Assembly: GCA_037179385.1 (NCBI GenBank)
Contig: CM074189.1
Location: 25,295,648 to 25,359,647 of the forward strand
Length of the DNA: 64,000 nucleotides
Direction: 5' to 3'
From: Holothuria scabra
Lineage: Eukaryota > Echinodermata > Holothuroidea > Aspidochirotida > Holothuriidae
Shown here: positions 249-52,509 of the stretch, piece after piece
How the letters are laid out: every line of letters begins with the position of its first letter
Position numbering within the stretch: position 1 is the first letter of the stretch
Translations under genes and position numbers: made by a program
The notes under the pieces: model-generated
What the model was told of the DNA's origin: nothing
Database searches by the model: none
The model's input: only the letters and a program-made list of their open reading frames with translations

Positions 249-480
249 GTTGCTGGTTGCTTGATGTATTACGTTCTGTCCAACGGCCACCATCCTTTTG
301 AAGCTACATTCCCTTTTATCAATAACACTGGAAGTCTGATTCGTAATTTGGCAGAGGGCAACTATTCGTTGTCTCATATTGCAAATTACCCCGCTGAATG
401 TACAATTTTGCTGAAGAAAATGCTAGATAAAGACATGCTGAAAAGACCCTCAATAGATGCCTGCTTCAAGAAAATGGAAG
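249..480 (+). CDS. Exon: C-lobe of an IRE1/RNase L-type protein kinase
   Basis: The exon follows a pyrimidine-rich acceptor (TTTTTTCTTTAG) and ends at a consensus donor (GTAAGC at 481). It reads in frame from its first base and leaves one base at the end (phase 1). The 77 residues begin VAGCLMYYVLSNGHHPFE, the helix F/G part of a kinase C-lobe as found in IRE1 and RNase L, where an AGC-type motif precedes YYV(L/I)S-x-G-x-HPF. They end with MLDKDMLKRPS, which carries the invariant subdomain XI arginine. The N-lobe and catalytic loop would lie in exons left of the window. IRE1 family members sense ER stress and RNase L senses 2-5A, and both couple this kinase fold to a C-terminal RNase domain. 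That RNase domain is not visible here. Family assignment is by motif only. Confidence 0.75.
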
Positions 481-1377
481 GTAAGCATTTGTTTTTCAAT
501 CTATGAGAAGTATGAACTAATATTTGTTTTCTTTGAATGACAATCTTAAGTCTGAAACTATGACTAGCCATGTTCAATTATTCTTTATGCTACAATTATG
601 CAATCGTAAAAATATCGTAGGGCGATACTTCCATGATCCAGTAAGCTGTGTGGGAATGAAGGCTGTTGTCCTCTGCTTTGTAGTGTCTACCCATACCTGT
701 CTTATTAACTTGCCCAGTGGACTGCTTCAGGTCACTGGGCTGTTTAGGATATTCAGCAGGAGTACAATGTGAAGAGTAGAAATCTACCGACTGCTGGGTA
801 CGAGAAAAAGGAAAACTTCCTTATACATTACTCAGAGAAAATTTGTTAGCTATTTTTAAAGGAGGCTCTTTTATTCAGCATAGTGCCTGTCTATCAATAT
901 GGGTACAGTAACTTTCACTTATTACAGCATATTATGAGAAGGTGTTACCTGCTCCAATAGTTGAATTTTATATCCACTACAGAAAGTCCAAATTTGTAAT
1001 AAGGGCACTTCCAGTGCATGATGTGTTATGGAAGCAGCATTGCATTATGTTTAATTTAATGCCAACCAGAGAACAACATCAATTAAGGATTGCAAATTTC
1101 TACTATTTTGAACCGTTATTGTCTGGTGATGTTGTTTCCAATTTAATTTCAAATAAAAAGAGGATCATTCTAGTTTACTACTGATACACCCTTGTGGGTA
1201 ATTGTAGAAGCTCATAAAAACCTTAACATTAACATAACAATGTAATTAACATAACAAACATGTTACGTACTGTAGAACAAAGTTAAATATGTACAACAAC
1301 TGCCTGCAGGATGCATACATCATGTGTTCATGTGTCTAGAAAGGAGGTTTTCAGAGATGTAATATATTTTTTCACAG

Positions 1378-1424
1378 CTATCAGCTTTGCCTCAAAATCC
1401 ATAAAAAGTTTGACAAGTGTGGAG
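1378..1424 (+). CDS. Probable small exon continuing the kinase C-terminus
   Basis: The exon has a strong acceptor (TATTTTTTCACAG) and a consensus donor (GAG|GTGAGT). It is 47 nt long and enters in the phase left by the exon at 249-480 (1+2 bases, giving Ala), then leaves at phase 0. The 15 complete codons read ISFASKSIKSLTSVE. In IRE1 proteins the stretch just after the RPS motif is (HP)FFW-S-x-K-x-L-x-FL-x-SVSD, and this exon fits that spacing and pattern. The splice sites and phase are seen directly. The homology is inferred from a short, weak match. Confidence 0.5.
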
Positions 1425-1661
1425 GTGAGTACCCCTAATGTCAAAATTCTTTGTTTGTTCATAAACTATTATTGCAATTGCAAAGCAGCAGTGGAAAATT
1501 TAGTACAGTGGTTAGTTCAGAAAGTCAGAAAGGTAATGTTGGTTTTTAGTATGTCTGTTTTGTACTACGTTTATTTGACAAAGTCATGGTGCCAAAATAA
1601 TTTGTTTTAATCATATTTGATTTTGTAGAGGTCCTTACACTGATATCTAGAACTCTTCCAG

Positions 1662-1790
1662 GAAGAATATACGGGGCAGTTGGAACAACAGAATTCATCA
1701 CCTTTGTCGTTTCATACATTTAGACACACACCGTTAAACACTGCAGTAGAATGCCTTACTAGTGAGCAGCTTTTATTTAATGGGAGTTGA
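1662..1790 (+). CDS. Alternative terminal exon of the kinase gene (weak)
   Basis: After a reasonable acceptor (CTAGAACTCTTCCAG) the phase-0 frame stays open for 42 codons and stops with TGA at 1788-1790. It would follow the phase-0 exon at 1378-1424 and give a short tail beginning EEYTGQLEQQNSSPLS. I recognise no domain, and nothing in it resembles the IRE1/RNase L nuclease. It is listed because it competes with the exon at 5204 as the downstream partner. Confidence 0.2.
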   Translation, partial: EEYTGQLEQQNSSPLSFHTFRHTPLNTAVECLTSEQLLFNGS

Positions 1791-2516
1791 CTGGAAACAT
1801 TGAGTCTTGAAATGATCAAAACAGCTCTAATGAAATTCAAATTGGCACCAACGGTTTTGAGAGAAAGCGTTTATAGATGAAACTGGACAGCAAGTGATGG
1901 TGTGATTTTAATCAGCCGTGACTGGGGTTCCTTACCCTTTGTCTTTCAATTCTCTTGCTTTCCTAGGTATCATGGACGGTTTTACACATATTTGTATCTT
2001 TATTCTCGCAAATTCACTGAATATGAGGGTGTGAAATTCATGTAGACATTTAATGAAGACAATTTAATACTGGTGAACCCCGTTTATGGCTGCCTACAGT
2101 CGCTAAACACAAGCCACGATCAGGTTCGTCTATACAAGTACAAAATTATCAGAAATGCCTATCCACCATTTTTGTTTATAGAAATGGCTGATTTAAGTAG
2201 ATGTGACATGAAATTTGTACTGAAAAGGTTTGCAAAATGTTGCCAATGTAGATAGAATACATAATTCTGAAGAGCATGCATACAACAGCTTTTCTAAACT
2301 GAACTTTTTTGTGTGAATGTTGCTGAATTCACTACATACATTACATGATGAGGGTAGCTGTTATTGAAATAGTTCACTGAACAAGACAATATCTATTGGT
2401 TAGAAGGAATTACTTTTTTGTGCCATCATTCTCCCCATGAACTAAGTGGTGTAGAATACTTTCATGTTGTTGTTTTAATTACTTGCAGGCAAGGAATCGA
2501 TGCGATGGTGATGTCG

Positions 2517-2550
2517 TGTGTATGGGTGAGTGTGTGGGTGTGTGTGTGTG
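2517..2550. repeat. GT-rich microsatellite
   Basis: An imperfect run of TG/TGGG units ends in (TG)6. It directly precedes the tandem repeat that starts near 2551. Confidence 0.85.
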
Positions 2551-3180
2551 AAACTCTTCGGCTTGTAAACACGATTTCTCAAGAAGGGTAAGTGTGACAC
2601 ATTTTTGGTGTGTGGGTTTGTCATATTACGTAGATAATCCCTTTTGGTTCTGGTGGAGGTCAAAGGTCATTTGGGTCATAAGGGGTCAAAAGGTCAAAAC
2701 CTTGTAAAAACGATATCTCAAGCAAGATGCTCATCTTTGGGTAAGTTGGTTGGTTGTATTAAGCAGATGATCCTATTGATTAAAGCGGAGGCCAAAGGTC
2801 ATTTGGAGTCATGGCAGGTCAAAGGTCAAAACCTAGGGAACACGGTATCTCAAGTAAAATGCGTATGACTATTGCTCATGTTAAGTATGTGGGTTGGCAG
2901 TATTGAGATGGTGATCCCGGTTGATCTTCCAGAAGGTCAAGGTCATTTGGAGTTAGCAGTGTCAAAGTCTGAGAAACTTGCTTGCATAGTATTACTGTAC
3001 AAAAAGGTAACTTGTAAGATTCTCATACTTGACATGTAGATGATGCATGGTGAAAAATAATCCCAATAGTTTTTGGTGGAGGTCAAACCTCACTTTGGTT
3101 CACAAGGGGTCAAAGTCTCAATATTATATTTATGCAAATTTCCCTTGGTTGGAGTCTTGGATACTGCAAATTTTCACACA
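2551..3180 (+). repeat. Diverged tandem repeat, unit about 130-145 bp, rich in AGGTCA half-sites
   Basis: About four to five units can be followed by the recurring block AGGTCAAAGGTCATTTGG at 2657, 2789, 2934 and 3077 (increasingly diverged). Each is followed by a GGGTCAAAAGGTCAAAACC-like block and then by a ...CGATATCTCAAG...ATGC block (2570, 2710, 2845). Two units contain a perfect direct repeat of AGGTCA with a 1-bp spacer, at 2657-2669 and 2816-2828. That is the consensus DR1 site of RXR/HNF4/PPAR nuclear receptors. The repetition is seen directly. Receptor binding is only a possibility. Confidence 0.8.
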
Positions 3181-5203
3181 TAGTATGTGGATGTGATATC
3201 ATGAGCAGAACCCTAGTTCTTGTAGGGCGCTTTGATGCCTTGCATGTATACTTTGTGGGTGCACTACGGCGCACTGTCAATTTGAAAAAAAAATAGAGGT
3301 TTAAATTTCAGCGGCAAGGAATCACTAAGCCTTTGGGTTTTCTGGTTTTGTATAAACCAAACAGTTATCACCCTGAACAATTTTGTATTTGGACTATTTA
3401 TAACAGTGCTGAGTTATAAAAGATATTAAAGCTCCTTGCCGAATAGTTGTTGTTTTCAATCTGTGTACACACTGCATGCACGTCTTCGGCGACACAGCTA
3501 AAAAGGAAAACTTTTTTGATGGTTGAAGGGTAACGATTTATGTACCAAACACCAAAGAAAAAGCAGGGCCAATTTGTAACACGTACATTGTCTAGATTTT
3601 GATCATTTAAATTTGGTCTTTTAAAACAAATTTATTTGAACGGAGTAACATGAAAACGTCTAGATAAAAACAAACATGGCAAATTAAAACTTAAGATTGT
3701 TATTAATGCGTTTGCAACAAATTTCTGTCAAGCATCACAGTGTGAAATGCTCATGTTGGGAGGTGGAACTAGTTCTTAGTTGAGCCAAAGTCCTCCTCTC
3801 AACATGCAAAGAACCTCCGTGTATAGTTTGTGCCCTATGACTCATGAAAAATTAAATTTCTATGAGATAATTGCAAGCATGCTCCAAGTCAAAAACGTTT
3901 TTAAATGATGATATACAACAAATTGGACAAAGCCATTTTGTTAACCAGATGTTTTGTACTTGCAGGCAAGTATAGATCGCAGCCACTAAAGATTTTATGA
4001 AAAAAGTGGAAAAGCCTAGAAGCGGAAAATATTAGGGCCCGTTTCTAATTTCCATTCAGTACTAAAAACAAATGGCCTTCCATGCTAATTTCCCAAAGAA
4101 AAATTATCCCGCCACCAACTCAACTTTATGTATTGGGTAGGGGGGCTATAGACAGTTGTCAGAACTCAATATGGCAGATTCGAACATTTGCTTTATGTGC
4201 ATTCAGCTTGAGCTGAATTGGATATTAGTGACAGGCTAGCTTTTTAAACGAACAGATACTTTTGATGGTGAAGGAGTGGAGTCAGTGACAGTGGAAATCT
4301 GCATAGTGGCTTTTATATTTGGTAAATCGTTTGCAGTTAAAAGTATTAAAACGTGTTTCAACAATAATATTTCATCATAATGATAAAGTACTGGATAAAT
4401 AGGCCTATTAAATGCACCATATATATTTAGTATTGTTAGTGGGATACCAGTTCGAATATAAAATTCAAAATCCTTTGTTTCTTATGTATAGCTCTGTTCG
4501 CTATTCCAGCACATGTCTGTTTAATATGTGTGTTCGAGAATTTATACCAAGCTAAATTTATACCAAGCTTTAAAAAGAACAAAAAAAAAAAAAAAATCCC
4601 CTCTTATGCCCGTGTAGCTGTTAGGCATGCCAGTACCTCCATGTTGGACATGTAAGCGTGAGAATGTGTACTGAGCAATGTAATTGGTCAGAAAAAACAT
4701 GTGACAGCCAAAGCAATCCCTACAATTCGGTTTAGTAACAAAGCTAGGAGACGAATTTGATTTGAAATAAAGGAGCATTGGCATTTCAATAGATAAACAT
4801 GATCAAAAGGTATATATGAATGTTGACGGAGACAACTATCGAGTGAACTATCAGGGAAAGACCTATATTTCGAGCTAAGCTAAGCTATGCTGGTGTCGCT
4901 CTTTAGCAATGTGTACCTGGTCTTTCTATTAATTATGTGCCTAAAGTTTTATCTAATCCTGAACCATGTACACTTAATGGTTAGCTTTTAACCAGACATA
5001 ATCTGCTTGTCATAAAAATATAAAATGAAATAGCGATTAAAAAGGTGGAATCCTCCTTCCCTGTAGAGAAGTCAAATGTTTTATCCCAGCATTTATTTAT
5101 TTATCTTTATGCATCCACAATCAGAAAGGGCTTCTTCTAAAGATAAGTTTTAATTGATGTCTCTAATTTTTTTTAATGAGTTAGTTTATGTTCACGTTTA
5201 CAG
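3181..5203. other. Gene-free stretch (probable intron)
   Basis: No convincing exon or structured element is visible. An A16 run lies near 4580. Confidence 0.4.
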
Positions 5204-5267
5204 ATGGCATCGGTTGCAACTGTTTCTGTAGACAACATTTCTTACTTCTTAGAACATGAAATTGCCG
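5204..5267 (+). CDS. Probable exon encoding the start of a death-fold domain
   Basis: The sequence CACGTTTACAG|ATG gives an acceptor immediately before an ATG, and GCC G|GTAAGG at 5268 is a strong donor. The 64-nt exon encodes MASVATVSVDNISYFLEHEI-A and leaves one base (phase 1), which the GT opening of the exon at 15432 completes to a glycine codon. The exon starts at phase 0, matching the end of the exon at 1378-1424, so it could be internal. Because ATG is its first codon, it could also be the first coding exon of an independent small death-fold gene with an upstream 5'UTR exon. Confidence 0.6.
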
Positions 5268-5394
5268 GTAAGGAACTTTAAGGAAGTTTTTGTTCATTGC
5301 CAAAGTCGCTTGGTCCAGAAAAGCAAGTTAATAACTCGTGCTGATAATATAAGAAAATGCATCTGGATTTCCAAGGGACCTGAGCAATGTTAGA

Positions 5395-7270
5395 TAGCCC
5401 GGCTTCAGATTGAGGCAAGTGCCACCTGGAATGGTCATTAATGCCACCATGTTTTTTTCGATTCCCTGACTTGTCTATAAACAGAAAAACTCAGGTATAT
5501 GGGTATCTTCGGGTGGGTTGGGGAAATATAGGGGGGTATCTGCCAAGAGTCAGGGTGCTGAAAAATGAAACATTGAAGGGGTAAGGGAAAGTAAAATGGC
5601 TATTATTTTTCATATAGAAACTCGAGAGTTGCAAACTACCCTTCAAAATACTTGGAAAGAAATTTTCTTTTAGTTGATATAAAGATTTTGAGAATAACGT
5701 GACTTTTGAGGTCATTAAAAGTCAAAAAGGTACGAAATTTGACCTTTGACCTAAATCTTGACTATGCTGTTTTAAAACGTAATTGTGTACAGTAAATCGA
5801 TTCATTTATCCTAGTTTGACCTGAAATGATTTTATTACATGTGTTCAGACAATTTTAGGCTTCTAATCTTCCAGGGTTTGTATTTAGGAAGTACCAGCGT
5901 CGAACGAAATGTTACCTAGTAAAAAATTTGTTAGAAAAACATAGATTTCCAACCCGGAAATGACAATCTATTCATGGTTAATGAGCGTTACAAGCTGTTC
6001 ACCATCTCGAAATCATTTTTGTATCTATTTAAGCATTCCTTGTTATAGAAATATTATTTATTGCATATCTACATGTCTATATCGATACCCCTGTCCCTTC
6101 TTAGTACCTAAAAAGGTGCAAAACAATACAATGAAATATCAGTACTAATAGTTTCAAATTGGGCAGGAGATTGAGGTAAGTGCCATCTTGGGTGGTCATT
6201 ATAGGCTATGGCCAACATGCATCTCACAGGCAGCCCTACAACTCTCCGTCGCAATATTATTTGGAAAGTTACGATCCGCTGAACACTAAATCAAGTGGTA
6301 TTGGTAAATATTTTGGGTCTCGCCCGTTCAAAATGGCTGCCAAAAACAATGGTGGCGAACATTTTGAATATTTTGTATTAAATAATAATAAAGAAAATAT
6401 CCTTAAAAATATTTTGAGGGATCGACTTTTAAAATTTAGTCATATTTTATGACAAGTATTCCAGAATTAATATTTGGGACTGTTTGGTGAGATTTAGGTT
6501 AACCAAGATGGGGGAAAAATAACAAAATGACTGCCAAACTAAATGAAACATTTCCAAAAATTTCCACATTCCTCAATCACAATGATGAAAAATAATGTTT
6601 TCAAATAAAGGCGGAACTTGACAATCCTATATACAAGAGTATTTGCCACTCAATATGTCGGAAAAGCACTGAAGAAGTAAACACTAATTCCCCACAAAAA
6701 TTAGAAAATAATTAAAAAAATGCAAGTGAAAAATGTCAGAAAATAATCACTAAAAATATATTTCGACTAAAACTTTCTAATACCTTTGAAGAAAAGTGTA
6801 CATAATTCTCAAAACATAGTTTCTGTTTTTTTATGCAGGACCCCATACTAACCAAGATGGCGGAAACAACAATATGGCCGCCAATAAAACGATCATAATG
6901 TACAAAAAGTAAAAAGAAAAATATTCATTAAAAAAACTTTTGACACAGTTTCCCTTAATTTCTGGACAGAATTTATGACAAATAATCCTAATTTATTTTT
7001 TAAAATACTTCTTTTGAAACTCAGATCAACCAAAATGGTGAAAAAGCAAAGTGGCCGCCGATGCATTAATTATGTTGATATATCATAACGATAGGAAAAT
7101 AATCATTAAAAGTACTTTTGGCACAGGAAAACCTAACCTGTGTCCATTTTCTGTTGTAAATATTCACAAAGTATTTTTCTGGACATTTCTTTTAGGATCC
7201 AGGTCCACCAAGATGGCGGATATTGCAAAATGGCTGCTTATTTAAAATTTCAATTAATTATAATAATAGA
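5395..7270 (+). repeat. Left arm of the fold-back element
   Basis: It matches 12860-14735 in inverted orientation. From about 6500 to 7220 it carries subrepeats with the core CCAAGATGGCGG followed by a purine tract and ATGGCCGCC (6502, 6852, 7208; a weaker copy near 7024). The core matches the YY1 consensus. Open frames here (such as 5960-6148) are mirrored in the other arm with many amino-acid changes and are not genes. Confidence 0.85.
7253..7270. repeat. LINE target-site duplication, 3' copy
   Basis: ATTAATTATAATAATAGA, identical to 12477-12494. Confidence 0.9.
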
Positions 7271-7639
7271 TTTTTTTTTCGAACGCTTTCAAACATTCTT
7301 TTCTAGACAGTTACAATATATACATAGTTAACATAACATATACAGATCAGCATAAATACAGTTTAAAGTCAGATTATCTTTACATCGACCTAAAGTTACG
7401 TTTTGTATAACACTCGTTTATGAGAATACCAGCAAACACTTTTTCACCATTTGTCCTCAATATTTTAGATTAGTAAGATAAATTTAACAAAAGGCAGAGA
7501 ACATGACATCGCACATACATGAAGACATGAAGACATTCTCAATGAAGCATAAATCATATAACAGAGAACACCAGTAATTGATCAAATAAATTTCATTTAA
7601 TAGAGGAAAAATATGGCAAAAGGGGGAAAAAGAAAAAAT

Positions 7640-10600
7640 TTAGGGAGAATTTATTCGGAATGAGAGGGCATTTACAAGTTCATGATACCTTTTGACTCTT
7701 TTCGGAGAACAGCTGGGTTTGGAAAAAATATGGTTTTCTACTTTAAGTATAAATAACAGTTTATGGTAGGAACTCTTAAACTCAGGAATTACGGAGTTAA
7801 GTTTGCAACAATAAATAAAATGTTTACAATACAAACCAACAAAATTGTATGGGTGCTGTAGAAGGAGCTTATAACCAAAGAAAAAATCGGATTTACTTAA
7901 AATAAATTGCCTGCCAAAGGGATGCTGTTCGGTGTCTAACAGAAAGGAGGAAGTGAACGAGCAACTCCAAAATAGGTGCTCCAAAGTTTCGATTTCGGTT
8001 TTGCAAAATGAAGAGTGAGGGGAATCAATTTTTTTCATAGGAAACAGCAGCTTGTTGGTGGCAAGGATTCTATGCAAAAAGCGGAATTGGAAATAAATAA
8101 GCTTGCTATCAGAAAGGGAAGCGCGGGGGATAGTAAAAATTGTTTGCCAATCATCCTCTGTGAAGTTGAACGTGTCATTCCAATGAACAATACATCTAGA
8201 AGGCAAAACGATTTTATCAATAAGCTTACAATAAGAGAAATACGTGACCCGGGGATGATTAAGCGTAGCTCTAAACATAGAATCAGGATTATCGTTGTTA
8301 AAGGGGTTTTCTTTCCACTCCACTGGGATTGAAGCTAACAGTCCGAAAAAACTAGTAAAAGGATAACGTATTATATTAAATTTGTTACAAAAATCGACAT
8401 ATGAGATCAAGTTGTGGTTACCATCATATAGGTCCTTGACATATAACACACCAGAACTGTGAAGTTTTTTATCATACAAAATTTTACCATCAACTTTTAT
8501 AAAGTGATTGTTCCAGAGAACTTGATTACCATAGTTATTTACAGGTGTATGGAAATGCAAAGAACTCCATGCATTGCATACTTGTCTAATAAAAACATTG
8601 TGAACTGGACAAATGTCCTTGGCGGTGAAATTACACTGAAAGATAAGGCATTTACCGAACGAATTTAAATAGTGATCAAAGAATAATTTCCAAACAGCGT
8701 TACTTCCACCAAGATATCTTTTCACCCAAGAGATTTTTAAGGCATAAATAAAACTTCTTACATTAGTAATTTTTAGTCCGCCATTACTGTAATTGTTATA
8801 CATTGTCCTTCTTCTGATCTTGTCAGGGTTTTTTGACCATATAAAATCAAAAATAGCGGATTGTACATCGTTTATGAAAGAGTCCGGTGGATCAGGAAGA
8901 ACTTGAAATAGATAAACTAGTTGGGAAAGGGCAAAAGATGTTACATTGATATTTCTGCCAATTGGGGTAAGATCTCGAGACGACCATATATTCAAAATGG
9001 TTTTGAGGCGAGATAATTTTGTAACATAGTTTAGTCCATACAGGTCGTTGCCATTATGAAAAAGGGTAATTCCAAGAAATTTGATAGGATCAAGATGGAG
9101 TGACAAATTAAAATAAAACACAAAAGTTGGGTGGTTTGTAACAAAGGGACCTAATGGAAATAGATGAGATTTCTGAAGGTTTACTTTTAACCCAGAGGCT
9201 CGACGAAAATCATGAAGAAGCTGTATGGCTGACCCTAGTGACTGTTGGCTTCCGTTTAGAAAAAGAACTGTATCATCAGCATATTGCAATAGCTTTATTT
9301 CATTGCCAAAAATGTTGATACCTTGAATCTGGGCACTCTTAAGTATAATCTTTGCTAAAATTTCAGTACAGAGAATAAAGAGATAAGGGCCTAGAGGACA
9401 TCCTTGACGTACGCCTCTCTTAACTGAGTTTGTATTATTATAAAAGGTTCGTACCCAAGTCCTAAAGTCATTACCAAACTTAAAGTAATCAAGAGTAGCA
9501 TGAACGAAATTCCATTCTAAAGTATCAAATGCTTTTTCAAAATCAAGAAAAAACAAAAACCCAGGAATATTGTTAAGATTTGAAAACTCGATAATTTCTA
9601 GCACGAATCTTACATTCTCACCAATAAATCTGTCGCTCATAAAACCTGTCTGGGTGTTACCTATCAGTGAAGGGAGTATAGTTTTGAGCCTAGAAGCGAT
9701 GGCCTTTGCCGCAATCTTGTAATCTGTATTTAAAAGTGCAATAGGTCTGTAGTTTGTCACATCATGAGTGTCCTTCACAGGTTTTGGAATTAAAATGATT
9801 ATACCCCTTCTTTGTTCACAGGAAACGGTTTGCTGCTCAAATGCATAATTTAACGATTTCAAAACAAATATACCAATACGAGGCCAGAATTTTTTTATAG
9901 AAGTCCGTAGAAAAGCCATCGCTTCCAGGTGATTTGCCATTTGGCATACTAAAAAGTGCAGAACGGCATTCGTCAAGATCTAAAAGTCCCTCACATACAT
10001 TGTAATCGACGGTATTCTGAAATTCCGGGAGCAGAGAAATACAAACATGCGGGTTAGTGTAATGAGAGGAGTAAAGCTTAGAATAAAAATCACGAATATG
10101 ATTTAAAATATCAGAATTAGATGTGAGGGATGTACCTTGTAAGTCATTTTACTTATAAATGGTATTGTTTTGCTTATTCCGTTTTTCAAGAGAAAGAAAA
10201 TATTTTGAATTTTGCTCCCCTTCCTCCACCCATCTTGCCTTAGATCTGATCATTATACCTTCACGCCTTTTCTTATACAACAGATGGAGATTATTTCTGG
10301 CATCATTTAACTCGTTAAGCAAGTTTTCATTAGTAACAGAATCAGACTCTAACTTAGCAATTTGCTTAATTAAATTACTTTTATATATGCGAGAATTCTT
10401 TGCCTTTGATTTACTAAAACGAATGGTACTTTTTCGAATGGTGTACTTCAATCCCTCCCAGAAGCTCGCCGGGTCCCGGCTAGAATTGTATGGGTCTGCC
10501 GAATAAGTAGTTATTAAAGTGCTTACTAAATCTATGTAACAGGGGTCTAAAAGTAACGAATTATTGAATTTCCAATAGCCCGGACCCGTAGATTCTATCG

Positions 10601-11336
10601 AGGTGTCACATTGCATTATAACAATGTGGTGATCGGATTGAAGGGAAGGGTGGAAATAACAATCAGTGACTTTGTTAACTAATTTTTTAGATATAAGAAA
10701 AAAGTCTAGTCTGCAACGAATATTATCAATAGTAGAGGCCCACGTGAAGCTAGACGAGAGAGGGTTCCTTGTCCTCCAAATGTCATCAAGACTAAATTTA
10801 TCCATGTATGAGATACAGGCATCACGTGCCTTAAAACTGGTCTTTTGAACACCTCCGTATTTGCCTAAAGCTAGATTAAGAACAAAGTTAAAGTCGCCCC
10901 CACATGTAATATTATCGCACTGAAAACTTTCTACATGATTAAAGAGAGTATGAAAGAAAGTTGAATTATCGGTATTTGGTCCATATACAGAAACAAGCGT
11001 GAAGATTTCGTTGTTTACAGTAATATCTAAAATGATAAATCGGCAATGAACATCTGTCAACTTTTTCAACACGGTTAGAGTAAAACCGGCTCTGAAAAGA
11101 ATAGCTACTCCTTTGCTGGTATTCGTACCATGCGTAAAAAACATTTCATTCCCCCACTCTGTTCGCCAACGACGCTCGTCACTAAAAACACTGTGGGTTT
11201 CTGGTATAAAACTAATGTCTAATTTATGTCGGTGTAAATAAGCAAAACCCATTCGTCTTTTTTCAGTATGACGAAGCCCTCTACAATTATAACTTGCAAA
11301 TTTCAGGTGGCTAAGAGCCATTAAAAAAAAAGACAA
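7640..11336 (-). pseudogene. LINE ORF2: AP endonuclease plus reverse transcriptase (one stop, one frameshift)
   Basis: The N-terminal part (starting at 11336) is an exonuclease-endonuclease-phosphatase nuclease with SYNCRGLR near residue 15, GDFNFVL, and the SDHH motif. This enzyme nicks target DNA for target-primed reverse transcription. The reverse transcriptase follows: NYRPIALLNTDYKI, FLDFEKAFDTLEW, GVRQGCPLGPYLF and the catalytic YADD (LLQYADDTVLF). A long C-terminal region has cysteines and histidines near its end (CKTEIETLEHLFWSC), as in L1/Tx1-clade LINEs. The frame is interrupted by TAA at 10149-10151. It resumes through the pre-RT segment (MPNGKSPGSDGF, near 9930) and shifts at the T7 run 9890-9896. 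With both lesions ignored, it is a complete ORF2. Confidence 0.93.
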
Positions 11337-11431
11337 AAGAACAACACAAAAGACAAAAAAGGAAAAAAAATCTTAATTCAGCACAAAAACACAGGGATAA
11401 AAACTGAAAAAGGTCAGTAAAAGACCTTGGT

Positions 11432-12332
11432 TTAAGCCTGATATGACAACATACCGCATGAAACAAAACAATGGTAAATACGTCGTCCATGCAACGTCCA
11501 TGCAAACGTGTAGGGCTTTCCGGATCCGTCCCGCCATTTACCACCAGAGAAACGAAGCCTTGTACCACTGTCATACAGTTGCTTCACTTGCGGTGTCCAT
11601 TTCTTACGCTCAGCTAAATCCACCTTTGTCAGGTCATCAACGATGAAAAAGGACTTCCCGTTCAAAGCTGCTCTACGTTTTTTTCATAATGTCTATTTTC
11701 ATCAGGTACGAAAGACATCTAACTAAAATGTGTGGAGGGTGACCATAAGCTCCTCGCCCGTCTCTATGACAACGTTCTACAACAATATCCGGATTGTCGA
11801 AAAACGGCAGGATTTGATCTTGAGCAATGCCTTTAATGTTTTCTCCATTAGTATAGGGTACGCCGACGATGCGAAAGTTGTTGCGTCTAGACATTCTTTC
11901 CAACTTATTAATCTCCTCATCTTTCTTTAACAAAGCATCCTCCAACTGTGAAATTTTTGTACTAAAATTATCAGGATCGCTCACCATGGCCGCCATCTTT
12001 GCCTCAATTTCGTCAATTCGTTTACTTTGAAATTCGATGGCCTTGCCTAAATCGGCATGTAGCTGTTTTATTGCATCCTGTACTGATGTGATAGACCCCT
12101 CAACAACCGCCTTAAAAGAGTCAAATGCAGAATGCCAGGAAGGAATTTCGGTGTTATTCTGTTGATCGACCATAGCAGATCTAGTGCCTATCGAAAGTGT
12201 AGGCCTATGTCTAGGTGAAGCAGGCTGCCTGCTGTTAGGGCTTTCAATCCTCGATGTAAGGGGTGGTCGGCCTCTTGTCTTTTTTGACATTCTCAGTTGG
12301 TTTAGAGAAGTAAATTCAACTACACATAGCAC
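11432..12332 (-). pseudogene. LINE ORF1: coiled-coil RNA-binding protein (one frameshift)
   Basis: The N-terminal part is basic (SKKTRGRPPL). A coiled coil follows (roughly residues 85-150: SVQDAIKQLHADLGKAIEF... to LEDALLKKDEEINKLE), then an RRM-like segment (RRNNFRIVGVPYTNGENI). The frame shifts at the T7 run near 11678-11684 and continues to 11432 with the conserved C-terminal part (FIVDDLTKVDLAERKKW). L1-type ORF1 proteins trimerise by the coiled coil and coat the LINE RNA. It lies about 95 bp upstream of ORF2 on the same strand, the normal LINE order. Confidence 0.85.
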
Positions 12333-12429
12333 AAAACCATGGAGAAACTTACAGTTGGCCTCGAGAATAAGTAAATCTTAGTTCCAGCGGTCTCTCTTCG
12401 AACCACTACGCCGCCATGTCAGGCTCGAA

Positions 12430-12508
12430 CCAATTATAATTATAGAGGCAATATTTTTTTACGGATAATTATCTCTATTAATTATAATAATAGAGATAAT
12501 TATCCGTA
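12430..12508. repeat. Inverted filler at the LINE 5' junction
   Basis: The last 16 bp of the LINE side (ACGGATAATTATCTCT, 12461-12476) are the exact reverse complement of target sequence just past the junction (12493-12508). The match extends outward through an AATATTTTTT block, for about 27 bp in all. A TTATAATTATAG stretch at about 12434 also resembles the target. This looks like target DNA copied in inverted orientation when the LINE 5' end was joined. Confidence 0.7.
12477..12494. repeat. LINE target-site duplication, 5' copy
   Basis: ATTAATTATAATAATAGA, identical to 7253-7270. Joining the two copies restores a continuous fold-back arm. Confidence 0.9.
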
Positions 12509-12859
12509 AAAAATATTTTTTCTGACAGTTGCTCTTTATAAATGGCCTCCTTTTATGCCAAATAATTGAAACGTGTCTTTAAAACATTTTAGATGCAATT
12601 CAGGTCAATCAAGATGGCGGAAGAAGTAAAATAGCCGTCAGTGATATAATTACCGTATTTTTTAATAATAAAGAAAATAATCACTTCAGATATATATAAC
12701 ACATAAAAACCTAAAATGTGTCCATAATCTTTAATAGCCATCGAAAATGTATTTTGGGGGCAGATTTAAGGTTTAAATGTCTTAAATATTTAACATAAAA
12801 TATGGCCATTTATAAAGAGCAACTGTCAGGAAAAAGTAATTTTTATGGATTATTTTCTC

Positions 12860-14735
12860 TATTATTACAATATATTGAAATTTTACATTAGCAACCAATC
12901 TGCTATATTCCCATCTTGGTTGACCTGGATCCTAAAAGAAATGTCCAGAAAAATACTTTATGAATATTTACAACAGAAAATGAACACAGGTTAGGTTTTC
13001 CTGTGCCAAAAGTACTTTTAATGATTACTTTACTATCTTCATGATATATCAACATTTTGCTTTTCCGCCATTTTGGTTGATCTGAGTTCCAAAAGAAGTA
13101 TTTTGAAAAGTAAGTATGGATTATTTGTCATAAAATCTGTCCAGAAATAAGGGCAACTGTGTCAAAAGTATTTTTAATGAATATTTTTCTTATTATTTTT
13201 TGTACATAATGATCGTTTCATTGGCGGCCATATTGTTGTTTCCGCCATCTTGGTTAGTGTGGGGTCCTGCATAAAATACCAGAAACCATGTTTTGAGAAT
13301 TATGTACAATTTTCTATAAAGATATCAGAAATTTTTAGTCGAAATATATTTTAGTGATTATTTTCTGACATTTATTTGCATTTTTTTAAATTATTTTCTT
13401 ATTTTTGTAGGGAATTTTTACTATATATTGTTTTTACTTCTTCAGTGCATTTCCGACATATTGAACGACAAATACTCTTGTATACAGGATTGTCAAGTTC
13501 CGCCTTTTGTTTGAAAACATTATTTTACATCATTATGATTGAGGAAGGCGGGAATTCGCATTTTTTCACAATTTTTTGGAAATATTTCATTTAGTTTGGC
13601 AGCCATTTTGTTGTTTTCCGCCATCTTGGTAAACCTGAATCTCACCAAAACAGTCCCAAAAATTAGTTCTGGAATACTTGTCATAAAATATGACTAAATT
13701 TTAAAAGTCGATCCCTCAAAAATATTTTTTAAGAATATTTCTTTTATTATTATTTAATACAAAATATTCAAAATGTTTGCCACCATTTTGTTTTTGGCAG
13801 TCATTTTGAACGGGCGAGACCCAAAATATTTACCAATACCACTTGATTTCGTGTTCAGCGGACCGTAACGTTTCCAAATAATATTGCGACGGAAAGTTGT
13901 AGGGCTGCCTGTGAGATGCATGTTGGCCATAGCCTATAATGACCACCCCAGATGGCACTTACCTCAATCTCCTGCCAATTTGAAGCTATTAGTACTGATA
14001 TTTCATTGCATTGTTTTGCACCTTTTTAGGTATTAAGAAGGAACACTGGTATCGATATGGACATGTAGACGTGCAATTAATAAATTTCCTACAACAAGGA
14101 ATGCTTGAATAGATACAAAAATGATTTCGAGATGGTGTACAGCTTATAGCTCTCTTTAACCATGAATAGATTGTCATTTCCGGGTTGGAAATCTATGTTT
14201 TTCTAACAAATTTTTTACTAGTTAACATTTCGTTCGACGCTGGTACTTCCTAAATACAAACCCTGGAAGTAGTCTAAAATTGTCTGAAGACATGTAATAT
14301 AATCATTTCAGGTCACACTAGGACAAATGAATCGATTTAATGTACACAATTACATTTTAAAATAGAATAGTCAAGATTTAGGTCAAAGGTCAAATTTCGA
14401 ATCTTTTTGACATTTAATGACCTCAAAAGTCACGTGATTCTCAAAATCTTTATATCAACTAAAAGAAAATTTCTTTCCAAGTATTTTGAGGGGTAGTTTG
14501 CAACTCTCGAGTTTCTAGATGAAAAATAATAGCCATTTTACTTTCCCCTACCCCTTCAAGTTTTGATTTTTCAGCACCCTGACTCTTGGCAGATTCCCCA
14601 ACCCACCCGAAGATACCCATATACCTGAGTTTTTCTGTTTATAGACATGTCAGGGAATCGAAAAAAAAAAAACATGGTGGCATTAATGACCATTCCAGGT
14701 GGCACTTGCCTCAATCTGAAGCCGGGCTAAGAGGG
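12860..14735 (-). repeat. Right arm of the fold-back element
   Basis: Reverse complement of the left arm. The mirrored CCGCCATCTTGG motifs appear at 13241 and 13619, and another sense copy sits near the loop at 12609. The internal edge next to the loop has a further short inverted match (12495-12548 against 12800-12859), which is the part of the arm cut off by the LINE. Confidence 0.85.
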
Positions 14736-15134
14736 GTTCTCATCCAGCTTGGATTAAACCTGATTTGGAATTTACAGCACCCATGTTATGCGAAAAAGTT
14801 CAGAGCAGGCACATTGTAGTTTTCAAGAGTTAATTATTAGAGTTATTGGGTAAATCTACAAATTTAATTTCAGTGTCCATTGGTGTTACTTAGAACGTTG
14901 TTTACATTACGTTTCCATTTTTTTAACCAAATATGTATTAGTTATATTCTTAAGGATTTTTGGTTTGCTCCATTCTACTTCCATTCCATGTGTGTAATGG
15001 GTCTTTGGAGTTTTAATTAAAAGTTGGATGTTTGTTATGTGAATTGATGATATAATGTTTCACAAGATCAAAGTGGGATACAGCAAAGATGACCATTTAC
15101 AGGATATTTGTAATTTTTCTTTCAATGTATCCCT

Positions 15135-15148
15135 CCCCCCCCCCCCCC
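15135..15148. repeat. Poly-C run
   Basis: Uninterrupted C14. Similar C runs lie at about 20922 and 20961. Confidence 0.9.
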
Positions 15149-15431
15149 GAATGTACGCTTGTTCTGACTATGAATACGTTGAGGAAGTATCTTTTGGAGT
15201 GAACCCAGACTAAATCAGTTTATATCTAAAATTTTCAAAGTTGTGTAATCATGAAAAAAAACACCTATTCTTGGTACTTACCTCTGGGTTAGAAAAAAAT
15301 AAATCTACTAATTTGTTTAAATCATCTTACTATGTTTTGTTGAAATAACTTAATTAAAACTGTACTTTTTTTTTTTTTTGAAATATTAAGTGTTAAAACA
15401 TAACAAACTTTCTTTTACTTCTATTCTAAAG

Positions 15432-15745
15432 GTGAATTTTCAAGACTAATTGTGAAAATATCAACGAAACTCACGAGAACAAACTGTGTCTTCCTGGCAA
15501 GATATTTCAATTTTTCTCCAGCAAAAATTGCAATAATTAAAGAGGAAACTAATACACCTGGAATAGATTTGCTTGATACGATGGTTGAACACAATGACAT
15601 TAACAAGTATGATGTTACCTACTTGCAAAAGGCTTTGATAGACTTAGAACTCAACGATGTAAATGAGACACTAGTCATACCGTATCAAAGAATGATTGAC
15701 CCGCGAGCCCATGAAAAGCATAAAGTTCTACCACAGTCGCCTTAA
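15432..15745 (+). CDS. Terminal exon: death-fold (DED/death-domain-like) protein
   Basis: The acceptor is TTTACTTCTATTCTAAAG and the stop is TAA at 15743-15745. The exon supplies two bases that complete Gly, then 103 codons beginning EFSRLIVKISTKLTRTN. The pattern is that of a six-helix death-fold: a Cys-x-x-Leu-Ala pair in helix 2 (CVFLARYFNFSP), a charged turn (IIKEETNTPG), a Leu-Leu pair (IDLLDTM), then DVTYLQKAL and DLELNDVNETL. DED and death-domain proteins of invertebrate deuterostomes look like this. They act by homotypic assembly in apoptosis and innate immune signalling. About 20 residues of basic, proline-containing tail follow the domain. Whether it is a DED or a DD cannot be settled by eye. 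The upstream partner is either the kinase exons or only the exon at 5204. Confidence 0.7.
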
Positions 15746-22825: not shown

Positions 22826-24285
22826 TCATATAACTACAGGTGTAGCTGTATTTCCTGTAAGGAAACGCTTTAAAATAGTAAAGAAACAAAGACTAGCCCC
22901 TATCGCAGCGACAACCGCCCCAGTTTTAATATACAAAGGAACGTCTTTCGTCTCCATAGTTTGTGACGATGTGGCAAAGGTAGTGATGCCAGTCGATATG
23001 GTAGCGACAGAGGTTTCCTCAAAGCAGGCTGTGTCAAATTTATGGGAAAGAAAATCGGTGATGTTTCATAACTCTGGAATGATGCAGACGATATCCTAGA
23101 AAAAATATCTTGTCCTTTAAGCCACTTTTGAAGGTAATAACTACCACAGTCACAAGTAAAATTATTACCGTCAAGAAGCAATGCAAAATCTTTGTCTATT
23201 GGATGAATTATGCCAGACGGAAAGGTCGTTAGGTCGTTAAATGTAAGATCGAGATGTTCCAGGTTTTGAAGTCCTTTTAAAGATTCTCCATAAATGTAAT
23301 GGATCTGATTATTCCTCAGATTTACACGTCTTAAATTAGCGTTTCGGATGAAGGCTTCTTTAAGGGATAACATTAAGTCGGTTCCATCCAAGGCCCAAGG
23401 TCTTTGAGTGCGGCAGTCTTCGCAGAAGAGATACTGGAATATTGGTTAATGCATTGTGATTAATATCCAGAACCGTTAAGTTATATGTTATCATTCCTGG
23501 AGAAAAGGAACCAATTTTTGATATTTCATTGTAACTAATAATAAGTTCTTTAATGCCTGGGAAAGTTCTTAAAACATGATCAACCATAAATTGTAAAAAG
23601 TTGTGCTGTATATGCAATCTTCCTACTGAATTTGAAAGAACTCCATTAGTCCTCATTAGCATGGTGATATAATTTTTTCCCAGGTAAATACCTGTCACTT
23701 TGGTAAGATGTTGTATTTCCTGGCTTGGAAAATGTCCCAAGGAATAGTTCGTTAATATGAGACGGCCTAAATTCTCGAGACCCGCAAAAGCATATTGCTG
23801 AATTTCCTGGATATCAATACTATCTAGAGAAATGTATTCTCGCGAAGGATTCCAACGAAAGCTGGAGGCATTAATTGAAACGATTTTGTTGGATGATAGA
23901 CCTAGGTACTTAAGTTTCGTTAGTTTTTTCAGAGGGTTAACAGGAATAACTGTTATTCTGTTGGATTGTAAGGACAATAACTCGATTTCCGGGTTATTAA
24001 GGATGATTTCTTGCTTGACAACTTGAACTCCATTAGAGTATAACCTCAAGGTAGTCAAATTAGGAAAATACGGAAGTGTTATGTTTCCATATTGCAAGGC
24101 TGTGAAACTTGTATGGAAGATGCTTAGCTCTCTTAGAAATATGAACATATTTTCAAGTACAATTTTGGCCCATTACAAGCCAGTCTGTCCCAAATAAAAA
24201 TACACTGAAAGGGCGCTGTAGGCATGATCGTAGAGAAAACAGCAAAGAAAACTGTCCAAATAAGTGACATATCCAACGTCGCCAT
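22826..24285 (-). pseudogene. LRR transmembrane protein, single exon, three 1-nt frameshifts
   Basis: ATG at 24285 begins a signal peptide (MATLDMSLIWTVFFAVFSTI), then a cysteine pair typical of an LRRNT cap (CIFIWDRLACNGPK). About ten leucine-rich repeats follow (24160-23240; L-x-x-L-x-L-x-x-N pattern), then an LRRCT cap (NNFTCDCGSYYLQKWLKG ... DTACFEE), a Ser/Thr stalk, a membrane helix (AVVAAIGASLCFFTIL) and a tail of about 11 residues ending in TGA at 22828-22826. The product would be a type I cell-surface LRR receptor like a TLR ectodomain without TIR. Three shifts are needed: near 24163-24168 (A4 run), 23360-23370, and 23038-23060. It is either a recent pseudogene or an unpolished assembly of an intact gene. 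Every domain is otherwise in place. Confidence 0.8.
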
Positions 24286-24789
24286 TTTTACAACTTCTTG
24301 ATGAAAAACTGACGCTTAAATGCATAGGTATAAGCCGCGGAATTTCGTCAGCTATTTCCAACCTGCTGGCTTTCTTTTAAATCCGAGTGTAGTTCTGCAT
24401 GAAATGTATTAAAGCGCATTTCACATAGGTATGTAAGTCTCAGTAGCCAGGTCCTCCTTATATCATGACAAATAGATTCAAGATCTGTTAAAAAAATAAA
24501 ATTAACGTTTTAATAAGAATGAAGTATTTATACATCAATGTTTATAACCCTGTGTGTCTCACTGGTTAACCGACTTGAAATTGAACCATGTAACACGCAT
24601 TGGTAACACGCTGTTATGGGTAAGACTAATATACCCCTTCCCCCGAAAATCAAAACCTTGTCTAAAAGAAACTTCAAAAAGTGTTAGCACGTTTCAAAGA
24701 TGCATTACCAGAAAATTTTTAAATCATAATTTAGAAAACAAAATGTTTAAGTACAACTTTCAAAGTCTGGCAAACGACATAATTAGCGA

Positions 24790-42572: not shown

Positions 42573-42833
42573 TTAACCCTTTACCGTTGTGCTCCAATCG
42601 TGGCATATTCGCGCGCCTCGGGAGTGGGCGGAAAAGCGGAGGTAGCACGCCCCGCTTCAGCTTCCGTAGGTTATTGGCCCCGTGACCTTAAACTATATTG
42701 TCCCTCTCGTTGTTGTGGCCGAATTTTCGGTTAGCTACTCGAAGTTTCGAGCTCCGCGTGAAACAGTAAAGATTGGTGACAGCCGCGCTCTCTCTATGGG
42801 TCCAAATGGACCCAAACAACGGTGAAGGGTTAA
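42573..42833. mobile_element. piggyBac-like MITE, copy 1
   Basis: TTAA then CCCTTTACCGTTGT at the left, ACAACGGTGAAGGG then TTAA at the right. 261 bp including both TTAA sites. Terminal CCC next to TTAA is the piggyBac hallmark. The interior is GC-rich (CGCGCGCCTCGGGAG, CGAGCTCCGCGTGAAAC) and matches copy 2 at 52250-52509 in the opposite orientation. No transposase. Confidence 0.88.
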
Positions 42834-52249: not shown

Positions 52250-52509
52250 TTAACCCTTTACCGTTGTTTGGGTCCTTCTGGACCCATACGGAGAGCGCGG
52301 CTGTCACCCATCTTTACTGTTTCACGCGGAGCTCGAAACTGCGAGTAGCTAACCGAAAATTCGGCCACAACAACGAGAGAGACAATAGCTTAAGGTCACG
52401 GGGTCAATAGCCTACGGAAGCTGATGCGTGGCGTGCTGTGTCCGCTTTTCCGCCTGACTCCCGAGACGCGCAAATATGCCCCGATTGGAGCACAACGGTA
52501 AAGGGTTAA
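52250..52509. mobile_element. piggyBac-like MITE, copy 2
   Basis: Reverse-complement copy of 42573-42833: TTAACCCTTTACCGTTGT on the left and ACAACGGTAAAGGGTTAA on the right. Here the 14-bp inverted ends are perfect. 260 bp. Confidence 0.88.

Follow-up and report, generated by a model that had tools for sequence, protein, structure and literature searches.

The stretch analysed here comprises 64,000 nucleotides of the sea cucumber Holothuria scabra, referred to in its full length as the window, and contains the 3' part of a gene whose earlier exons lie off the window. The encoded protein is predicted to run from the C-lobe of an IRE1-type kinase through a linker into a death-effector-like (DED-like) domain, with no detectable KEN nuclease. 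On balance, we consider it probable that the window holds the 3' half of one gene from a small family in which a DED-like domain, an IRE1-type kinase and a second DED-like domain follow one another. The features that make up this part of the gene are the following.

249 to 480, plus strand: exon 1, the first inside the window, 232 bases with splice borders, phase 0 in and 1 out, encoding the predicted IRE1-type kinase C-lobe
1378 to 1424, plus strand: exon 2, a 47-base linker exon, phase 1 in and 0 out
5204 to 5267, plus strand: exon 3, 64 bases, phase 0 in and 1 out, linker ahead of the DED-like domain, opening with an ATG
5268 to 15431, plus strand: intron 3, 10.2 kb, enlarged by inserted mobile DNA
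15432 to 15745, plus strand: exon 4, 314 bases, phase 1 to stop, with the entire DED-like death-fold domain, followed by a tail and the stop codon
15795 to 15800, plus strand: AATAAA, a possible polyadenylation signal from a pattern scan only, 50 bases past the stop

These four exons, with good splice sites and compatible phases, had been proposed in an earlier note on this DNA (the original prediction), and checking of the coordinates, of the AG/GT borders at all four exons, of the phases (0>1, 1>0, 0>1 and 1>stop) and of the open frame found every one of them correct. The joined exons form a single open frame of 218 residues that ends in a TAA at 15743-15745, and the exon frames, when read through into the introns, meet stops at 504, 1608 and 5279. 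A loose splice scan of 481-15431 listed 16 phase-1 cassettes, six of which (exon 2 at 1378-1424 and five others) begin before 5204 and enter exon 3 in phase 0. Because five other cassettes can be spliced to exon 3 in the correct phase, splice signals are not enough to prove the bridge.

The evidence for the joining is protein conservation between species. When the joined protein, padded with unknown residues for the off-window part, was used as a query (1110 candidates, E up to 10), three proteins matched, all of them predicted proteins of the sea cucumber Holothuria leucospilota: P0002 (762 residues, E 1.5e-94), P0003 (863 residues, E 5.2e-94) and P0004 (537 residues, E 2.7e-88), which are 67%, 67% and 66% identical, respectively, along the joined stretch. 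In the pairwise comparison with P0002, residues 1-218 align with 146 of 219 positions identical, a single one-residue gap and a common end point, and P0003 and P0004 likewise match across all three exon junctions and share the end, so that the proposed joining of the kinase exons to the death-fold exons is borne out. A first search with the joined query and a search with the exon 4 frame excluded proteins more than 1.75 times as long as the query, and hence the full-length relatives; among 117 candidates the former matched only P0001, and this only over the kinase exon (60% identity to exon 1, P0001 continuing beyond the exon 1 end, apparently into the intron), and the latter found no match within that length limit. 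Searching the window with P0001-P0004 by tblastn revealed no second copy of the gene.

Conservation extends over each exon. Exon 1 is identical at 59 of 77 residues, exon 2 at 7 of 15 and exon 3 at 11 of 21 to each of the three H. leucospilota proteins, and exon 4 at 68, 68 and 66 of 103 residues to P0002, P0003 and P0004, respectively; the codon split between exons 1 and 2 is identical and that between exons 3 and 4 different with respect to all three. Among seven bridging options (the six candidates and no exon at all), exon 2 scored highest against the H. leucospilota linkers, with 125, 136 and 126, compared with 87, 108 and 96 for the best of the other six, and in 2000 shufflings of exon 2, and likewise of exon 3, the observed score was never reached against any of the three proteins. 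Exons 2 and 3 gave no separate tblastn match, for which they are too short. As judged from these sequence comparisons, the four exons are one conserved coding sequence.

The same evidence bears on the possibility, raised in the original prediction, that two adjacent genes are present, namely a kinase gene that terminates close by and a short DED gene whose start would be the ATG at 5204. Such an arrangement would fit an ATG placed exactly at the exon 3 acceptor and the length of introns 2 and 3; however, linker exons 2 and 3 have conserved counterparts in the three H. leucospilota proteins, which are unbroken from the kinase to the DED-like domain, and the ATG is aligned with Gln (P0002 and P0003) or Arg (P0004) and therefore is not a gene start. 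Since conservation covers the linker exons but not the ATG, we rejected the two-gene arrangement, which we regard as extremely improbable.

The domain order seen in the window recurs in the three H. leucospilota predicted proteins, which also indicate what may lie upstream. P0004 consists of a helical-looking N-terminal domain, a kinase (Pfam Pkinase, 135-392), a linker and a DED-like domain (Pfam DED, 436-508). In all three proteins the kinase that precedes the C-terminal DED-like domain carries GxGxxG, VAVKK, HRDLKPSN and DFG, and the protein ends with the DED-like domain. The N-terminal and C-terminal domains of the family resemble each other (hhalign probability 93.7), and the C-terminal domain encoded in the window matches the N-terminal domain of P0002 with a BLASTP E value of 6e-07 for that pair; the N-terminal domain alone gave no Pfam DED row. 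From these proteins we infer that the window gene has its own first DED-like domain and kinase N-lobe off the window, and we hold the gene structure together with the DED-like/kinase/DED-like architecture to be nearly certain.

Two of the relatives carry additional sequence. Residues 1-200 of P0002 contain a truncated second kinase with HCDLKPSN (HCD instead of HRD), and because this kinase stops at ...KKESDVQ, the point where exon 1 of the window begins, P0002 is probably a gene-prediction artefact that fuses two tandem genes. Residues 1-305 of P0003 form an N-terminal extension without a clear Pfam match, perhaps propeller-like by eye, which may possibly be a sensor or a merged neighbouring gene.

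H. leucospilota has three such proteins, encoded on contigs that differ in length (though they may still be alleles). This points to a multigene family, and the window copy might thus be a decaying paralogue or pseudogene, the more so as intron 3 is filled by mobile DNA and the window shows the gene without its 5' part. Nevertheless, the four exons, their phases and splice borders are intact, the stop position is conserved and an AATAAA follows the stop, so that we consider decay improbable.

Regarding the kinase, comparison of P0004 with PDB sequences gave IRE1 in the first 16 rows (E 3e-30 to 5.2e-27), followed by PLK1 (4.3e-17), and RNase L, RIPK and IRAK are absent from the best 60 of its 1817 PDB rows. 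Among the 18 PDB rows of the joined window protein, 16 are IRE1, three of them yeast rows near 2e-05 (best 2.1e-05) and 13 at 0.029-0.053, and the C-lobe matches Pfam Pkinase with E 5.9e-05 (23 bits, below the 31.7-bit cut-off). An IRE1-type rather than an RNase L-type kinase is supported by these comparisons, and of the "IRE1/RNase L-type kinase" initially proposed only the IRE1 part stands. RNase L shares the general IRE1-type kinase plan, but P0002-P0004 have neither ankyrin repeats nor KEN among their Pfam rows (E up to 10); for this reason, and given its absence from the best PDB rows of P0004, membership in the RNase L group was rejected. A crude hydropathy analysis of P0002-P0004 detected no membrane-span-like stretch (best 19-residue mean 1.10-1.22). 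These proteins have no stretch likely to span a membrane; the family is therefore probably cytosolic, without the sensing of the endoplasmic reticulum lumen that IRE1 performs. With neither a membrane span nor an ankyrin match, the idea of a stress or nucleotide-sensing kinase that works like IRE1 or RNase L found no support.

The KEN nuclease domain that would be expected after an IRE1-type kinase was not detected. PF06479 (KEN) is not among the Pfam rows of any of P0002-P0004 (E up to 10), and the best PDB match of P0004 stops at residue 392, the point at which a KEN domain would be expected to start. A KEN profile built from human IRE1, yeast IRE1 and human RNase L was run over the 3552 stop-to-stop segments, each 12 residues or longer, in the six frames of the window, and gave a best E of 0.36, with nothing above chance, in a search that very short or divergent exons would escape; by tblastn the best E was 0.21, in an alignment running through stop codons. 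Within the reach of these searches, a KEN domain elsewhere in the window was therefore rejected. The three relatives and the six-frame search together support the proposal that the kinase C-lobe leads into a death-effector-like domain, with no KEN detected between or after them. The DED form could also be a splice variant of an ordinary IRE1 whose alternative transcript includes KEN exons, as the database names of the relatives (IRE1 and IRE2) might suggest; we regard this as highly improbable, since no KEN signal was found on either strand of the 64 kb window, apart from what very divergent or short exons might hide, and none was seen in the Pfam rows of the three relatives.

The C-terminal domain was assigned by profile comparison and modelling. 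Against DED, death domain (DD) and CARD profiles, built from six, three and one reference sequences (unchecked), hhalign gave probabilities of 80.7, 0.15 and 0.15, respectively. Modelling from a single sequence gave a poor structure (pLDDT 48.0), and AlphaFold2 with four sequences gave a model of moderate confidence (pLDDT 64.8, pTM 0.57) with six helices in residues 7-89. Death-fold structures top both fold searches made with Foldseek and VIA-align, with a Foldseek probability of 1.00 but an E value of 0.042; the first 11 among the best 50 Foldseek rows are DED structures, and the PEA-15 DED is among the best matches in both searches.

Several results temper a DED assignment. The Pfam DED match of window exons 3-4 (E 0.069, 13.8 bits) and those of P0002, P0003 and P0004 (E 6.9e-05, 2.8 and 0.0012; 23.4, 8.7 and 19.4 bits) all fall below the curated cut-off of 35.9 bits, the Pfam scan of the joined window protein gave no DED row, and in VIA-align DED is tied with DD. 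In addition, RxDL, which we take to be the charge motif of DED helix 6, is not kept: five of six aligned human DEDs have RHDL, RPDL, RLDL, RFDL or RIDL at this position, and the window and H. leucospilota proteins have LNDV, LNEI, LNGI and LNEI. DED2 of caspase-8 is also without the motif. We conclude with moderate confidence that the modelled C-terminal domain has a death-type fold, and we describe it as DED-like from the profile comparison and the model. A PDB sequence search with window exons 3-4 returned two rows, both L-amino-acid oxidase (E 0.5-1.1), which were taken as chance.

IRE1 kinases work through kinase-driven dimers and oligomers. If this mode of oligomerisation is kept in the family, on which the first step depends, the cytosolic kinase would dimerise upon activation in the IRE1 manner, and the dimers would cluster the DED-like domains, two per chain, seeding death-fold assembly. 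The clustered domains could then nucleate an assembly with a DED adaptor or caspase, much as the kinases RIPK1 and IRAK do by means of their death domains. Death or immune signalling would then be controlled directly by the state of the kinase, an output that replaces the RNA cleavage of IRE1. By analogy, we tentatively propose that the protein acts as such a cytosolic kinase-controlled death-fold switch, to which we give slightly less than an even chance. A wider and more doubtful scenario is that in sea cucumbers an IRE1 kinase lost its endoplasmic reticulum sensor and its RNase and became a DED-kinase-DED switch, whose dimers would seed a caspase-recruiting DED filament, a one-protein shortcut for what vertebrates do with several proteins; the 305 extra N-terminal residues of P0003 may add a sensor.

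The protein might also be a regulator and not a trigger: like FLIP or PEA-15, it would offer its DED-like domains as a decoy or scaffold, and its kinase would phosphorylate DED partners. The PEA-15 fold match would suit this role, no protease or nuclease domain is evident in the Pfam rows of P0002-P0004, and the RxDL position lacks its Arg, so that canonical filament contacts may be lost; conversely, two related DED-like domains flanking a kinase suit multivalent assembly, and we consider a purely regulatory function rather unlikely.

Several known systems resemble the family in part. The kinase domain of the family resembles that of IRE1 (ERN1), more weakly so in the window C-lobe, whereas the family has no detected KEN RNase, P0002-P0004 have no hydrophobic stretch fit for a membrane span, and DED-like domains stand on either side of the kinase. 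Caspase-8 and c-FLIP, as tandem-DED proteins, and FADD and PEA-15, as single-DED adaptors, share the DED-like fold; here, however, the two DED-like domains are separated by the kinase, the RxDL motif is not kept, and no caspase domain is among the Pfam rows of P0002-P0004. As in RIPK1/RIPK2, IRAK and Pelle, a kinase is joined to a death-fold domain, which suggests by analogy a likely similar way of working. The available text on RIPK1 and RIPK2 assigns them a death domain and a CARD, respectively (PMC11507063), and the present family differs in having DED-like domains; the main text of that H. leucospilota RIPK/MLKL survey has no occurrence of "IRE1" or "death effector". The amphioxus "direct connector" hybrids, such as DED-NACHT, which are ascribed to domain shuffling onto death-fold domains, similarly couple a death-fold domain directly with a sensor or enzyme, but the partners named in the available text are NACHT, TIR, LRR, TNFR and caspase, none of the hybrids named there having an IRE1-type kinase (PMC2575513). 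Finally, a table row of PMC3710099 gives kinase, ankyrin, CCCH, UBI and BRCT as fusion partners of KEN, and not DED.

No description of a DED-IRE1-kinase protein is among the literature matches listed by a full-text search that covered mostly work outside subscription journals, and the architecture is not described in the available text of PMC3710099, PMC8195603, PMC2575513, PMC11507063, PMC8913654, PMC2246300 or PMC9657328. The relatives are already in the databases, filed as "IRE1" or "IRE2"; thus, the possible new fusion of the original prediction holds as a fusion and is not unique to the window. IRE1 is usually viewed as a kinase plus an RNase, and this family appears to keep the kinase with death-fold-like domains in the RNase position, suggesting that another output can be connected to the IRE1 kinase module, and offering a testable case for the origin of the link between stress-type kinases and death-fold assembly. 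Because the H. leucospilota proteins named "endoribonuclease IRE1/IRE2" have no detectable endoribonuclease domain, counting them as IRE1 could mislead stress studies in sea cucumbers.

The 10.2 kb length of intron 3 is due to inverted repeats around a minus-strand LINE-like element. The repeats (5395-7270 and 12858-14729) are about 1.9 kb each and 89% identical, with the edges TAGCCCGGCTTCAG, and the element has three open reading frames.

7643-9979, minus strand: reverse transcriptase open reading frame
10152-11372, minus strand: endonuclease open reading frame
11676-12377, minus strand: coiled-coil-like open reading frame

Short direct repeats, 69% identical and rich in AGGTCAAAGGTCA-like stretches, lie in intron 2 (2562-2967). 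Beyond the gene, leucine-rich-repeat open reading frames (LRR_8, 3.7e-29), split over frames, lie on the minus strand at 22829-24315; no TIR domain is among the Pfam rows of the two of them that were scanned, and they resemble a portion of a Toll-like receptor ectodomain. A further inverted repeat pair, 91% identical, is located at 42573-42833 and 52250-52509.

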